DNA from: Streptomyces sp. PKU-EA00015
GTDB lineage: Bacteria; Actinomycetota; Actinomycetes; Streptomycetales; Streptomycetaceae
Assembly: GCF_013387495.1 (NCBI RefSeq)
Contig: NZ_JABZEE010000010.1
Span: forward strand, 186,001 to 250,000
Reading direction: 5' to 3'
DNA length: 64,000 bases
The notes under the pieces are model-generated. The model did not search any database and was not told the DNA's origin. It saw only the letters and a list, made by a program, of their open reading frames with translations. Numbering within the stretch: the stretch's first letter is position 1; each line of letters begins with the position of its first letter. The position numbers and the translations under genes are program-made. Positions 5,630 to 63,380 of this stretch are shown here, piece by piece.

Positions 5630-7045
5630 GTGCCGTCGATGCTCGATGCCGTCGTCGTGGGGGCGGGCCCCAACGGACTGACAGCCGCGGTCGAACTGGC
5701 CCGCCGCGGCCTGTCCGTCGCCGTGTTCGAGGCCCTGGACAGCGTGGGCGGCGGTGCGCGCACCGAGGAGCTGACCCTCCCCGGCTTCCGCCACGACCCC
5801 TGCTCCGCCGTGCACCCGCTCGGCATCGGATCGCCCGCGTTCGCCGGCATGCCGCTCGCCCGGCACGGCCTGGAGTGGCTGCACCCCGAGCTGCCCCTCG
5901 CGCATCCCTTCCCCGACGGCTCGGCCGCGGTCCTCAGCCGCTCGGTCGGCGAGAGCGCCATGTCCCTCGGCGCCGCCGACGCGGGCGCCTACCGCCGCCT
6001 GGTCGCGCCGTACCTGGGGCACTGGGACGACCTCGCGGCCGACTTCCTGCGTACGCCCTGGGACGGCCTGCCCCGCGCCCCGTACCGCTTCGCCCGCTTC
6101 GGACTGGACGCGATCCAGCCCGCCACCTGGCTCGCCCGCCGCTTCCGGGGCGAGAAGGGCCGGGCGCTGCTCGCCGGGCTGGCGGCGCACGCGATCGCGC
6201 CCACGAGCGGGGTCGCCACGGGCGGCATCGCCCTGATGTTCGCGCTGGCCGCGCACGAGGTCGGCTGGCCGGTGCCCCGGGGCGGCTCCCAGGCCATCTC
6301 CGACGCCCTCGCCTCCTACCTGCGCGAGCTCGGCGGCACCGTGCACACCGGCGTCGAGGTCAGGCGCCTGGACGAGCTGCCGCCCGCCCGCGCGTACGTC
6401 TTCGACACCTCGCCGACCGCGCTCGCCAGGATCGCCGGACTGGGCCACGCGTACTGGCGCTACCGGTACGGCGCCTCCGCGTTCAAGATCGATTACGCGC
6501 TGTCCGGCCCGATGCCGTGGACCGCGAAGGAGGCCCGCGCGGCCGGTACCGTGCACATCGGACCGACCGCGGGCGAGATCGACGACGCCCTTCGGCGGGC
6601 CGTCGAGGGGCGCGATCCCCGGGCCCCGTTCCTGATCACCGCCCAGCCCAGCCTGATCGACCCCACCCGGGCGCCCGAGGGCCGCCATGTCCTGTGGGCG
6701 TACGGCCATGTGCCCGCCGGCTGGGAGGGGGACGCGACGGAGGCCGTCGAGCGGCAGCTGGACCGGTTCGCGCCCGGCTTCCGCGACCTGGTCCTCGCCC
6801 GCGCCGTCGCCGGCCCGCCCCAACTGGCCGCCCGCAACGCGAACTACGTCGGCGGTGACATCGCCTGCGGAGCGTTCGCCGGCCTCCAGACCGTGCTGCG
6901 CCCCCGGCTGGCCCGCGTCCCGTACGCCACCACGCACCCCGCCGTGTTCCTGTGCTCGTCGGCGACCCCGCCGGGGCCGGGGGTGCACGGCATGTCGGGG
7001 CACCACGCGGCGAAGGCCGTCTGGCGGCGACTGCGTCAGCGCTGA
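5630..7045 (+). CDS. FAD-dependent oxidoreductase, phytoene desaturase/PYROXD2-like
   Basis: Flavoprotein of 471 residues. The dinucleotide-binding motif VVGAGPNGL (9-17) is followed by an acidic end to the second beta strand and the GGGARTEE segment of amine-oxidase/phytoene-desaturase-like enzymes. The C-terminal [14 protein letters not shown] closes the FAD site. The GTG start has AAAGGAG a few bases upstream. No phytoene synthase or other carotenoid gene is nearby, so a true carotenoid role is unlikely; the PYROXD2-like subgroup has no agreed substrate. Confidence 0.82.
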
Positions 7046-53882: not shown

Positions 53883-54494
53883 TCATTTTCTCCTGCGGAG
53901 GAAGACCTGTCGTCGCCAAGGAGTCGCAGCGGTTGCGGTGATTCCGATGGCCAACGCGATGACGGCAACAGCCCAACTGACGGGGTCGGTGGCCGGCTTA
54001 GCCGTCCAATCCCACCAGTTGCGGGGATACCAGATCAAAGGGAAAGCCGAGGCCATGGGGATGACCCAGCCGAGTTGGTGCCCGAGCAGCCTGATGGACA
54101 GCAGGGCAAGGCCGAGCCAGATCAGTACGGAGCGGACGAAGACGACTCCATGCTCCGGTCCGACGGCGAGTGCCTCGGTACCGAAGGAGAGAGTGCAGGC
54201 CGTGAGCGTCAGTCCAATGCAGTACGCGTTGCGGAGGCGGTGCATGGTGCGTGCGCCGGTCTCCTCATGCGCCGACATCGCTCCGCCGAAGGCAGCCGTG
54301 AGGAAGACGGCTGACAGGAGCGGAAGCTCATGCCGGTAGGGCACGCCTGTGGAGAGACTCGCGCTACCGATGGATGGGAGCGCGATGCGGGTGCCACCGA
54401 AGAACGCAGACAGGACGGCGACGACCGCAGTTCCGGCTAGGATTGATCCGGCCCGGTGGACCCTTGCGTAGCGAAGCAGATCACTGCCGTACAT
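53883..54494 (-). CDS. Polytopic membrane protein of the peptide/ABC cluster
   Basis: Protein of 203 residues with about five to six membrane segments (for example ILAGTAVVAVLSAFFGG, SVLIWLGLALLSIRLL, WAVAVIALAIGITATAA) and a basic C-terminus RRRK. Not recognised. ATG 54494 is used because it overlaps the permease stop by 14 bases, the same style of coupling as between the permease and ATPase genes. It is the last gene of the cluster and may be an accessory permease or immunity protein. Confidence 0.72.
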   Translation of the reverse strand: MYGSDLLRYARVHRAGSILAGTAVVAVLSAFFGGTRIALPSIGSASLSTGVPYRHELPLLSAVFLTAAFGGAMSAHEETGARTMHRLRNAYCIGLTLTACTLSFGTEALAVGPEHGVVFVRSVLIWLGLALLSIRLLGHQLGWVIPMASAFPLIWYPRNWWDWTAKPATDPVSWAVAVIALAIGITATAATPWRRQVFLRRRK

Positions 54495-55788
54495 CAGGCT
54501 TACACCAGGTGTTCTCGCGAAGATGGCTGCGCTCCTGGGCAATCCAATTCTCCTGCTCGGCCGGCGTCATTCGTGCCGCCTCGGTTGCCTCGCGCTGGGC
54601 GGTGCCGACGCCGGTGAGGTGGAGCCCTTTGTCGGCGGCGGCCGGATCCTGGTCCATGGCCTGGTATTCCAGCCATAGGTGGATGTTGTCGATGGCCTGC
54701 CATGCCCGGCGCGCCTGTGGATCGGTGGGATTGGGGCGGCATCGACCGAGCGACGTAGTGAAAACCTGGTCGGCCATGGCGATCGCTGCGGTGCGTACGT
54801 GCCCTTCGGCGATGTCGAAACCTCGATCTCCCCATCGGGTACGCCGCAGTCCGAATTCGTAGAACTCGTTGGGTGTCTTGACCCAGGGCTGAGTAGGCCG
54901 GCCAAGGCGCTGGGCCATCCTGGTCAGCTCCGGCAGGTACTTCCGGTGCTCAGGCCATACGCACACCCGTGGGGAATGCTCGTCGGCGCGGTCGCACAGC
55001 GGCTCAGTCGCCGAGGCCGGGCGTTCCACGCGCAGTTCACCAGCGGCCGGTGCCGCGGCCAGTGCGGCCAGGGAGCTGACTGCCGTGACGATGACGACAC
55101 CGCGCGTGTGTCGTGGCAGTTTTCGACGAGGCATCTGGCGCTCGGCCTTCCTCGTCAGTGGCGGTGCTGTGACTGCCAGCACGGCGAGGGTGAGAGCCAG
55201 GAACAGACGGACAGCGAGTGGTAGCGGGCGAAGGTAGGTATCCGGCGGCCCAGCGAGGACATTGAACTTGAACGGCAGGGACAGCATGCTGATGAAGCAG
55301 CCGAGTGCGCAGACGACGGGTGTGAATCCAGGCGAGGGCCACCAGCGGCCGGCCAGGTGTCCTACCGACGCGAAGATGATGAGGGTCGCGGCGCCCAGCA
55401 GCAGGTAGGAGGGCCACAAGAAGCCCGGTCCCGCGTCGCCCAGCGAGACGGCCGCCGCGGTGAGGCACCCGATCCCGTACGCAAGGAATCCGAGCGTGAG
55501 GGTGGCGGCCAGCCTCGCGGCCTCAATCCGCCAGCCGGGTCGGGCGGCGGCGAGTAGGAAGTCGGGCATCCCCGCCCGTGAGGAGCGTCCGGCCTGCCAG
55601 GCGGAAACGCCGGCGAGCATGGGCCCCAGGAAGAGCGTGACGATCTGTGCCGCCACGCTCGCCTCGGGCCAGACGCCGATCCAGTACTGGGACCGCCCGA
55701 AGAGCACCGCCAGGTCCACGGCGATCATCACGGGGAAGGCGGTGAGTAGAGGGGAGCGTCGCAACTCGATGCGGTAAGTGTTCAGCAT
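54481..55788 (-). CDS. ABC transporter permease-like protein of the peptide/ABC cluster
   Basis: Protein of 435 residues in two parts: about six membrane segments in residues 15-230, ABC-2-like, and a soluble C-terminal domain from about 245 (ELRVERPASATEPLCDR..., helical, with Cys pairs) that probably lies outside the membrane. Its ATG overlaps the ATPase gene by seven bases. With the ATPase it should move a substrate or expel it from the membrane; the nearby secreted peptide is the obvious candidate. Confidence 0.78.
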   Translation of the reverse strand: MLNTYRIELRRSPLLTAFPVMIAVDLAVLFGRSQYWIGVWPEASVAAQIVTLFLGPMLAGVSAWQAGRSSRAGMPDFLLAAARPGWRIEAARLAATLTLGFLAYGIGCLTAAAVSLGDAGPGFLWPSYLLLGAATLIIFASVGHLAGRWWPSPGFTPVVCALGCFISMLSLPFKFNVLAGPPDTYLRPLPLAVRLFLALTLAVLAVTAPPLTRKAERQMPRRKLPRHTRGVVIVTAVSSLAALAAAPAAGELRVERPASATEPLCDRADEHSPRVCVWPEHRKYLPELTRMAQRLGRPTQPWVKTPNEFYEFGLRRTRWGDRGFDIAEGHVRTAAIAMADQVFTTSLGRCRPNPTDPQARRAWQAIDNIHLWLEYQAMDQDPAAADKGLHLTGVGTAQREATEAARMTPAEQENWIAQERSHLRENTWCKPDVRQ

Positions 55789-56558
55789 GCCGCTTCCTCA
55801 GTCGACCGGCTGTTGCCCAGAACAGTCATGTAGCCGCGCTCCAGTGGACTGTCTCCCGGGGCCATCGGCGCGGACTGTTCTGCCAGTTGTTGTGGCGTCC
55901 CGTTATGAACCACCTGGCCCTCACTCAGCACGAGGACGGTGTCACAGGCAGCGCCCACGTCCTCCACCAGGTGCGTACTGAGCACAACGGCCGCCCCCGA
56001 GCGGGCGAGGGAACGAATGAGGTCACGAAAGTCAAGGCGCTGCGCAGGATCAAGGCCGACGGTGGGCTCATCGAGCAGAACCAGAGAAGGAGAACCGACG
56101 ATGGCCGCAGCGATCCCGGCACGACGGAGCATGCCGCCGGACAACGACTTCATGCGGTCGCGGGCCCGGTCGGTCAGCCCTACGGCAGCCAGGGCCGCCT
56201 CGGCCGCCGGTCCGGCCTCCTTGGACGGAACCTCACGCAGCCAGGCACAGTAGCGGACGAAATCGGTGATGGAGAACGCCGGGTAGTAGCCGAAGTCCTG
56301 AGGTAGGTAGCCGATTCGACGACGGACTTGGCGGACGTCCCGTTCGTTGGTGACGGGTTTGCCGAACAGTTCCAGTCTCCCGCTCTGCGGTGGTGCGATC
56401 GTGGCGAGGGTACGAAACAGTGTAGTCTTGCCTGCCCCGTTGGGGCCCAACAATCCAGTGACACCCGGCTGGATGGACAGGTTGAGATCCTCGATGACGC
56501 GTCGGCCACCGTACCCCTGCGTGAGGGCCGTCAATCGGGCGACGGGAGCAATCGTCAT
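55782..56558 (-). CDS. ABC transporter ATP-binding protein of the peptide/ABC cluster
   Basis: ATPase of 258 residues with Walker A GPNGAGKTT (near 39-47), Q-loop, signature LSGGM, Walker B LVLLDEPTVGLD and H-loop STH all intact. The closest general class is the CcmA/NatA/BcrA type that pairs with ABC-2 permeases in export, drug or bacteriocin resistance. ATG 56558 lies 65 bases after the secreted-protein gene, with a stable hairpin between them. Confidence 0.92.
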   Translation of the reverse strand: MTIAPVARLTALTQGYGGRRVIEDLNLSIQPGVTGLLGPNGAGKTTLFRTLATIAPPQSGRLELFGKPVTNERDVRQVRRRIGYLPQDFGYYPAFSITDFVRYCAWLREVPSKEAGPAAEAALAAVGLTDRARDRMKSLSGGMLRRAGIAAAIVGSPSLVLLDEPTVGLDPAQRLDFRDLIRSLARSGAAVVLSTHLVEDVGAACDTVLVLSEGQVVHNGTPQQLAEQSAPMAPGDSPLERGYMTVLGNSRSTEEAAC

Positions 56559-56578
56559 AAGTGAAATCCCCGAAATAC

Positions 56579-56611
56579 GCGGTGGGCCCGCCGCAACGAC
56601 GGGCCCACCGC
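56579..56611 (-). terminator. 12-bp hairpin between the secreted-protein and ABC genes
   Basis: GCGGTGGGCCCG (56579-56590) pairs perfectly with CGGGCCCACCGC (56600-56611) around nine bases. It follows the secreted-protein stop by 12 bases and ends 20 bases before the ATPase ATG. No T-run follows, so it may act as a partial terminator that lowers expression of the ABC genes relative to the peptide. Confidence 0.65.
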
Positions 56612-56623
56612 AGCGCTGGTAAA

Positions 56624-56962
56624 CTACTGGTAAACCTTAGTTCCGTTGATCTTGAACGTGCACTCGTGGGTGTCGTACTTACCCACGTAGCCGTTGTACA
56701 ACCTGTCGAAGTGCTGCGTGTCGATCTCGGCGTTGCAGTCGTAGGTCGTAATCCACGTATGGTGGTAATAGGTGTTTGCGTCGTAGCAGTAGCCATGGCC
56801 GGCCGTTGTGTACCAGTATCCCCGGCAACCCATGTGCCAGGAACTCTCGTTGTATGCGCTCGACGTCGGAGCCGTAAGGCCGATTGCGGCAGCCGCCATG
56901 GCCGCGACAATAGCACCCTTCCCGACCTTGGTGCCCATTATTCGTGTTACGAGAGTATTCAT
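56624..56962 (-). CDS. Small secreted four-cysteine protein, candidate bacteriocin or signal
   Basis: Unrecognised protein of 112 residues. Residues 1-36 are a Sec signal peptide (basic start, VAAMAAAAIGLTA core, TSSA end). The 76-residue mature protein has exactly four Cys (46, 59, 76, 101), 12 Tyr and many His/Trp, and would form two disulfides. Codons are clearly less GC-rich than in neighbouring genes. It is followed by an ABC ATPase, a permease and a membrane protein on the same strand, the usual layout of a bacteriocin with its immunity/export genes. A purine-rich AGGGGGGGAA precedes the ATG. Confidence 0.75.
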   Translation of the reverse strand: MNTLVTRIMGTKVGKGAIVAAMAAAAIGLTAPTSSAYNESSWHMGCRGYWYTTAGHGYCYDANTYYHHTWITTYDCNAEIDTQHFDRLYNGYVGKYDTHECTFKINGTKVYQ

Positions 56963-57695: not shown

Positions 57696-58154
57696 TCACA
57701 CCGGCTGTCCATGCGGTCGGCGGGTCAGGTCTGCCCAGACCGTTTTGGTGAACTGGTCGTTCACCGTGTATCCCCAGTGCTCTGCGTACGCCCCGACGAG
57801 AAGCAGCCCGCGTCCCGAAGTCGCCGCGGCCGCCGGTGTTGTCCGGGCGCACGGGAGGCGATCCGGGCGGGTGTCCGTGACCTCGACGCGGATGACCTCG
57901 GGCAGGAGTCGCAGCGCGAGGCGGAAGTCGCGGCCGGGTGTGCGGCCGTGCGTGATCGCGTTCGCCGCCAGCTCGGACGTCACTATCGCCACCGCGTGTG
58001 ACGTTGCCGTGGCGTGCAGGATGCCCCAGTCGGCGCGCTGCTGCACCGCGATGCGGCGGGCGAGGCGGGCGCCGCGGGGTGTGTAGCTGAGTTGTACGGC
58101 GAACATGCTTGTCGAGGGCGGTAGTTGAGGGAGAGATTGCACTTCAGTGTTCAT
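57696..58154 (-). CDS. ATP-binding protein (RsbW/HATPase_c-like)
   Basis: Single ATPase domain of 152 residues of the anti-sigma kinase type: the N-box ELAANAITHG, the DTRPDRLP turn and the G2 box SGRGLLLVGAYAEHWG are visible. Streptomyces genomes carry many such proteins next to XRE and DUF397 genes; here they are divergent, 173 bases away. The true start may be ATG 58106 (MFAVQLSYTP) instead of 58154, since the first 16 residues are poorly conserved in type. Confidence 0.87.
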   Translation of the reverse strand: MNTEVQSLPQLPPSTSMFAVQLSYTPRGARLARRIAVQQRADWGILHATATSHAVAIVTSELAANAITHGRTPGRDFRLALRLLPEVIRVEVTDTRPDRLPCARTTPAAAATSGRGLLLVGAYAEHWGYTVNDQFTKTVWADLTRRPHGQPV

Positions 58155-58327
58155 GGCGTAACCGTCTCGTCACGCAGATGGCGTGAGCCAGGTCGGGCAT
58201 GCGTACCTGGCGGCGTTGTACGGGTCGGGCGTGATGTTGTACGGGTGCCGGCCCATGTCGACGGAGTGCCTGGCGCCGTTCAACAAGCGTCAAGCACAAA
58301 CACGTTGGCGCGTGGGGGCGTGGGCTC

Positions 58328-59163
58328 ATGACGAACAGCCGCACGAAGAAGCGGGACAAGGACGACGATCGCCCGGTCATCTGGGTGGGCTACGGCAAGT
58401 TGCTGAAACTCTTCCGGGAGCGGGCGGAGTACACACAACAGGCCCTCGCGGATGCCGTCGGCTACTCGTACGAGCAGGCGGCCTCGATCGAGCAGGGCCG
58501 CCGCCCCGCGAAGGCCGCGTTCACGGACGCGGCGGAGCGCGTCCTGGACGCGGGCGGGGCGCTGGCCGTCCTCCAGGACGATGTGGACCGGGCGAAACTC
58601 CCCTCGTTCTTCTGGGACTTCGCACTGATCGAGACGGAGGCGGTGAGCAGGTTCTCGTACGATCCGCTGCTCGTGCCGGGTCTGCTGCAGACGAGGCGTA
58701 CACACGGGCGCTGTTTGCCGGGCACTGTCCGCCGCTGGACGACGAGATCATCGAGCAGCACACGGAGGCGCGTCTGGGCCGGCAGAAGCTGTTGACGCGT
58801 ACGCCGCTGGTCGACCTGTCCTTCGTGATCGAGGAGGCGGCACTGCGCAATCCGATCGGTGGACCGGAGGTGATGCGCGGGCAACTGCAACGTCTTCTGG
58901 AGGTCGGTGCGTTACGGAACGTGGAGGTCCAGGTCATGCCGTCCGGGAGGGGCTTCCATCCCGGGCTGAACGGCGCGTTCGTCGTTCTGGAGACCTTGGA
59001 GCACCGGCAGGTGGGTTATGTCGAGTCCCAGGAGACCGGTGTCGTCGTGAGCGACCCCGCAAACGTCAGTGCTTTCGGCTTACGGTATGGCAAGCTGCGC
59101 TCGCAGGCCCTGAACGCCGAAGAGTCTGCGCGTCTTATCGAACGTCTGGCAGGAGAGGCATGA
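58328..59163 (+). pseudogene. XRE/DUF5753 (Scr1-type) regulator with a frameshift
   Basis: The N-terminal helix-turn-helix (about 20-75, LLKLFRERAEYTQQALADAVG) and the first part of DUF5753 (SYDPLLVPGLLQT) read from ATG 58328. At about 58693 one G is missing and the rest of the domain (AYTRALFAGHCPPLDDEIIE to the end at 59163) continues one frame over. As written the product stops at 58795. Two TTA codons (58912, 59080) lie in the second part, so the gene would also have depended on the bldA tRNA. It may be a sequencing error; otherwise a fresh mutation. Confidence 0.82.
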
Positions 59164-63250: not shown

Positions 63251-63380
63251 GACGCCGCCGCACCCCGTGACCGGGGCACGACGGACGCCGCCGCACCCCG
63301 TGACCGGGGCACGACGGACGCCGCCGCACCCCGTGACCGGGGCACGACGGACGCCGTCGCCCGCGGGACCGGGGCATCAC
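63251..63380 (+). repeat. 33-bp tandem repeat, three exact copies plus one degenerate
   Basis: Units at 63251-63283, 63284-63316 and 63317-63349 are identical; a fourth, changed unit follows to about 63380. Each begins GACGCCGCCGCACCCCG and contains CCCCG-TGAC-CGGGG, a 5-bp hairpin. The length is a multiple of three and the GNAT frame is open through it (11-residue unit VTGARRTPPHP), so copy changes would not break that frame. Confidence 0.9.

Follow-up and report, generated by a model that had tools for sequence, protein, structure and literature searches.

What does a small secreted protein with four cysteines do at the front of an ABC transporter operon, and does it belong with that transporter? 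We asked this for a locus in Streptomyces sp. PKU-EA00015, using as window the whole stretch of 64,000 nucleotides that was analysed. According to the open reading frames, the minus strand carries in order a secreted protein gene (the head), a hairpin, an ABC ATPase, a permease and a second membrane protein; the last three are called the triad here. The first-pass annotation had described a Sec signal followed by a 76-residue mature part with four Cys and 12 Tyr, and these were seen in the head ORF. The coordinates and the folding also agreed with the hairpin, ATPase, outer-domain permease and membrane protein that it had listed, including ORF overlaps of 7 bases (ATPase/permease) and 14 bases (permease/membrane protein).

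56624-56962, minus strand: head gene, 112 aa, ATG start
56855-56962, minus strand: signal peptide, head residues 1-36, apparent cleavage between SSA and YNESS (read from sequence)
56627-56854, minus strand: mature head, 76 aa, with C46, C59, C76 and C101, Tyr-rich (sequence and alignments)
56578-56612, minus strand: GC-rich hairpin between head and ATPase (folding)
55782-56558, minus strand: ABC ATPase, 258 aa (PF00005, E 1.4e-29)
54481-55788, minus strand: ABC permease, 435 aa, seven hydrophobic segments and a C-terminal outer domain (hydropathy, alignment)
54484-55041, minus strand: permease outer domain, about residues 250-435, four invariant Cys (12-row alignment)
53883-54494, minus strand: second membrane subunit, 203 aa from the ATG at 54494, 5-6 hydrophobic segments

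The codon use had been called less GC-rich than in the flanks. This held against four neighbouring genes (GC3 0.726-0.791 in the head and triad genes vs 0.925-0.960), the fifth neighbour, an adjacent HATPase-type gene, having a GC3 of 0.804. A HATPase_c_2 gene lies at 57696-58154 (minus strand). An HTH/DUF5753 regulator at 58328-59163 (plus strand) looks frameshifted, the HTH part being read in frame 58328-58795 and DUF5753 in a second frame, 58183-59163; a DUF397 gene starts after it, at 59160. Further away, at 63251-63376, short direct repeats in tandem (offset by 33 bases, 93-96% alike) lie close to where a 229-aa ORF begins.

The head protein, the triad and the hairpin

The head has a basic N-terminus and a hydrophobic stretch ending in SSA, ahead of the 76 residues with the cysteines and tyrosines. 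The aligned relatives likewise begin with basic residues and a hydrophobic core and have small residues ahead of the cleavage site, and the window head has an apparent Sec signal, predicted to be cleaved between SSA and Y. The four Cys were present in all 22 aligned heads. C1 and C2 were 12 apart in 21 of them; the remaining one has an extra Cys in between, with the total spacing unchanged. The other spacings were 11-19 (C2-C3) and 24-27 (C3-C4), and the length counted from nine residues before C1 was 72-80. With a median net charge of 0 (from -7 to +4 over the 22 heads), the heads are not cationic, and no lipobox or anchor was seen in the head by reading. The 22-row alignment misplaces C1 of L104. 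The broken L025 (G082) was left out of every head alignment, and later finds (the second head of L027, the heads of L136 and those of L150-L162) are absent from the 22 rows.

As previously claimed, the head matched no known family, with no significant hit in Pfam, NCBIfam, PHROGs or PDB. In Pfam the window head came closest to DUF5620 (E 0.051) and Ricin_B_lectin (E 0.056), both far below the cut-off and dismissed. NCBIfam (E≤1) and PHROGs (E≤0.1) gave no match to the window head, and in PDB the 22-head profile got no better than E 0.23, which was taken as chance. DUF7155 was matched by 4 of 15 heads (best E 4.5e-4) and rejected, the best match covering residues 14-57, mostly signal. AlphaFold2 runs on two-row alignments (window and L004) gave strands only, with a pLDDT of 37.9 for the full protein and 41.6 for the mature part. 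No head relative was found among viral contigs and phage records, and none of the titles and abstract starts listed by full-text searches of the open-licence literature described the head family. On this look, the head is placed in no known family, and both the family and the transposon-like unit described below look undescribed within the open-licence literature.

Tendamistat-type inhibitors (PF01356) are secreted and fold as a six-stranded beta sandwich with two disulfides. They resemble the heads in being small, aromatic-rich Streptomyces proteins with four Cys at roughly similar spacing, but the heads extend beyond the fourth Cys and front an ABC operon. Homology was not supported (hhalign probability 0.2% against 14 PF01356 members, no Pfam match). 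Tendamistat-type inhibitors were present in 22 of 150 Streptomyces genomes.

In the triad, the best NCBIfam model of the ATPase was DrrA, below the cut-off, and its nearest PDB chains include ABCA, NosF and LptB; its PADLOC matches were taken as generic ATPase domain. The permease and the membrane protein matched no NCBIfam family at E≤1. The seven hydrophobic segments of the permease are followed by about 185 residues, which probably lie outside the cell. Within them C265, C276, C350 and C429 were invariant in 12/12 permease rows, and the closest domain, PF23866 DUF7224 (E 3.5e-5), scored 24.3 bits, below its cut-off of 27. For the second membrane protein, with 5-6 hydrophobic segments, 12 relatives were aligned.

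The hairpin of the window had an MFE of -35.9, vs -23.7 (sd 3.1) for mononucleotide shuffles. Using stretches cut by hand, we found a hairpin between head and ATPase in all 14 folded head loci, window included, with differing stem sequences. The z-scores in these loci were -1.0 to -5.6 (13 of 14 at -3.1 or lower, mononucleotide shuffles), and -5.1 to -1.0 in seven further four-Cys loci (dinucleotide shuffles). Loci with unrelated heads were mixed (L113 -3.8, L115 -4.4; L112, L110 and L066 above 0). L024, with three tandem heads, had the hairpin solely in the gap preceding the ATPase. From four headless loci folded, L101 had a clear hairpin (-2.4), L102 a weaker one (-1.4), and L065 and L107 none; we read L101 as a locus that lost its head and retained the transporter. 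Because no terminator-type T-run was found at the hairpin in the window, attenuation or mRNA protection are roles that we infer for it.

The layout recalls known bacteriocin systems. Lactococcin 972 is a non-lantibiotic bacteriocin whose plasmid-borne gene precedes putative immunity ABC genes, and its family has bacteriocin activity and binds lipid II (PMC4055356). The head cassette is similar to what is described there, in that ABC genes follow the candidate bacteriocin gene and it occurs on plasmids; it differs in having three downstream genes vs two. Homology was not supported: hmmscan of 15 heads against PF09683 gave no match, the hhalign probability against three Streptomyces PF09683 members was 0.5%, and the four fetched PF09683 loci (L067-L070) had no relative of the window permease.

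LanFEG transporters, according to PMC4239024, have one ATPase and two distinct permeases, and occur also without bacteriocin genes, in non-producers. The window triad likewise combines one ATPase with two unlike membrane subunits. It differs from LanFEG in that these subunits match no NCBIfam model (E≤1), the ATPase reaches 121.3 bits to TIGR03740 (cut-off 309.75), the permease has a C-terminal outer domain, and no modification gene was seen beside the head. A BceAB-type detoxification system was rejected: the same paper gives two components and a permease of 620-670 aa, whereas the window has a 435-aa permease and a separate 203-aa membrane subunit.

Occurrence of heads with and without the triad

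We found the head in 12 of 392 Streptomyces genomes, the window's genome counted, and ATPase, permease and membrane protein adjoin it in 11 of the 12, including G054, where the permease is frameshifted. The survey match in G168 was a second head, downstream of the triad. G082 holds a broken remnant: its head lacks the N-terminus, its ATPase is split, the permease is reduced to residues 1-123, and no membrane protein was matched. In the class survey 11 of 394 genomes matched, and the five taken as real heads all had the triad; G709 from this survey carries the same contig as L004 (S. globisporus). The other six matches (E 2.1e-5 to 7.8e-4), whose frames measure 47-420 aa and whose fetched stretches showed no triad, were taken as chance. 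The head and the ABC genes are confirmed as a real conserved unit, more than chance.

A survey of another family of the class gave matches in 13 of 200 genomes, with the triad adjoining the head in 7 of the 13: five of six strong heads (E≤1.5e-23) and two of seven weak ones (E 9e-8 to 5e-6). The six triad-less genomes, one with a strong head match (G786) and five with weak ones, were searched whole with the permease profile and gave 0/6 at E≤1e-5; this search had no positive, the same profile having matched nine genomes in the class survey. Since G786 and five weaker homologues have no such permease, a head does not always come with this putative protection. The ABC operon had earlier been called private to the head, with a wide occurrence of homologues lacking the ABC genes named as evidence against the proposal. 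The conserved head and triad unit stands; exclusive pairing was partly contradicted, as 6 of 13 heads in the other family were without the triad, these six genomes being without the permease and one having an FtsX-type pair.

That pair follows the weak head of G574 (L159:2562-6337), which keeps C1-x12-C2. Next on its strand come an ATPase (PF00005) and a permease of the FtsX type (PF02687), which form another kind of ABC system, unrelated to the usual triad. L155, L157 and L161, from genomes without the permease (E≤1e-5), encode secreted four-Cys proteins of one close type with a distant likeness to the heads, possibly members of a wider four-Cys family with another role.

Several heads may share one triad, with three in tandem in L024 and two each in L027 and L136. 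S. leeuwenhoekii pSLE2, found with a divergent head, carries two heads and lacks the triad (plasmid record only).

Seen from the permease, 33 of 392 Streptomyces genomes matched at E≤1e-6. A four-Cys head was present in 16 of the 19 at E<1e-25 (broken G082 counted), and G147, G224 and G113 were headless at the locus. Seven headless genomes searched whole with the 22-head profile gave weak matches only, inside a 277-aa frame in G147 and in a 99-aa frame with two Cys (by eye) in G542. From the remaining 14 Streptomyces genomes with a permease, 10 were fetched (G130, G230, G096 and G318 were left out), and no four-Cys head was found in the stretches of these 10 with weaker permeases. By a crude hydropathy test, G163, G279, one locus of G135 and a second locus of G147 have a secreted protein of another kind ahead of the ATPase. 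The permease matched 9 of 394 genomes in the class survey, five of them with a head. Otherwise, G542 (which looks degenerate) and G409 were headless, the G575 locus was cut by the contig start, and G446 had an unrelated secreted protein of 170 aa instead of a four-Cys head.

Distant cassettes with the same ABC type have other secreted proteins in the head position, 133-170 aa long and with no Pfam match over the cut-off. Those in L112, L113 and L115 resemble each other by eye. The alternative secreted heads are:

L066, 5267-5776
L110, 4746-5168
L112, 4755-5174
L113, 3206-3622
L115, 4991-5389

Mobility and evolution of the module

The cassette was found on two linear plasmids. Among plasmid records, the window head matched only S. 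globisporus CP109147.1, where PLSDB's incomplete table has no gene, and the permease matched additionally Kitasatospora sp. NBC_00039 NZ_CP108290.1. In the latter, a 4,130-bp stretch is flanked by two inverted insertion-sequence arms of 2,331 bp, 100% identical, both carrying the same transposase gene (DDE type in the scanned copy). The arms enclose one head, the triad and a second head, the latter missing from PLSDB's incomplete table; only heads and triad were seen there, with no regulator or biosynthetic gene. No target-site duplication of at least 4 bases was found at the unit. In the S. globisporus plasmid (L029), a SUKH-4 family immunity gene lies upstream of the cassette at 6057-6626, with transposases beyond. 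With its low GC3, the linear plasmids and its position as cargo between identical inverted IS copies, the module reads as patchy and mobile.

Two S. globisporus strains had permeases 92-93% identical and mature heads only 63% identical. Their dS was 0.22 for the permease, 0.44 for the membrane protein, 0.51 for the mature head and 1.07 for the ATPase, differences that we read as a sign that recombination has replaced the head-ATPase part. Such divergent heads on near-identical permeases count against a tight head-permease specificity. The pN/pS values, from 7 of 66 possible pairs, were 0.37-0.73 in the mature head and 0.23-0.60 in its signal, compared with 0.14-0.22 in the ATPase and 0.15-0.47 in the membrane protein. 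By these values the head is a real protein that changes fast under constraint, and it is not the sole fast part. Head and transporter identities correlated (Spearman 0.88-0.92, 66 non-independent pairs from 12 loci, mostly between-clade signal), with 0.39-0.70 within the close clade (28 non-independent pairs).

Possible roles of the head and its transporter

Our preferred reading, with a probability of roughly 0.4, is that the head is a Sec-exported, disulfide-stapled, bacteriocin-like effector, which forms with a dedicated self-protection transporter a mobile four-gene module. The head would exit through Sec, fold outside with two disulfides and target the envelope of competitors. The ATPase and its two unlike membrane subunits would, similar to LanFEG, keep the head off the producer membrane, with the permease outer domain contacting it, and the hairpin may permit head production in excess over the transporter. 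Killing and immunity would be the putative functions of the module. Pointing to this are the 11 of 12 genomes with head plus triad, the 16 of 19 permease loci with a head, the triads with several heads, the apparent head loss in L101, the LanFEG systems known without bacteriocin genes, the mobility, the pN/pS contrast and the FtsX-type pair of G574. Against it stand the head genomes without the permease, pSLE2, the non-cationic heads, the membrane subunits without a family match, the fast change also in signal and membrane protein, and the S. globisporus head/permease mismatch.

Rather unlikely is that the head is an extracellular signal or cue, sensed or cleared via the permease outer domain, the triad being a receptor or clearance system and not an immunity system. 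The apparently outer domain of ~185 residues with its four invariant Cys would suit this, as would the lack of cationic heads and the correlated head and transporter identities, but the Kitasatospora unit has no accompanying regulator and heads occur in genomes without such a permease. These latter heads without a triad would in turn agree with a head that is secreted to serve at the surface, in structure or development, or to inhibit an enzyme, and that the triad helps to deploy without antagonism. Small secreted four-Cys proteins of other families do exist in Streptomyces, such as the tendamistat type (22/150). Still, we consider this role unlikely: the heads have no profile relation to PF01356, and the rare distribution, low GC3 and transposon-like copy indicate that the module is not core. 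Export of a small molecule or lipid by the triad, with the head as extracellular carrier or cofactor of that product, is improbable, the nearest ATPase matches (DrrA in NCBIfam, below cut-off, and the ABCA, NosF and LptB chains in PDB) being countered by a Kitasatospora unit with no biosynthetic gene and a head without lipobox or anchor (by reading).

The bacteriocin-like reading could, at a fairly low probability, be extended to an undescribed mobile class of secreted heads plus guard in actinomycetes, with interchangeable heads and a shared heteromeric ABC transporter whose permease has an extracellular domain. Four-Cys heads, or the 133-170 aa proteins of the distant cassettes, would front the shared ABC, and four-Cys heads also another ABC type; the heads might be narrow-spectrum antagonists, which the transporter clears from the own surface.

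Within the open-licence literature, the head protein family and the transposon-like unit look new, and a secreted small protein with a dedicated ABC transporter is of an already known kind. Should the head prove to be a signal or a surface protein, its conserved unit with hairpin and ABC genes, and the mobility of that unit, would still be concrete findings in need of an explanation. The putative protection genes adjoin the head, and therefore its function is directly testable. Searches in Streptomyces have mostly been for small molecules and modified peptides. If the bacteriocin-like reading is true, this genus would gain a family of secreted, disulfide-bonded antagonists that is unannotated and for which no modification genes were seen.
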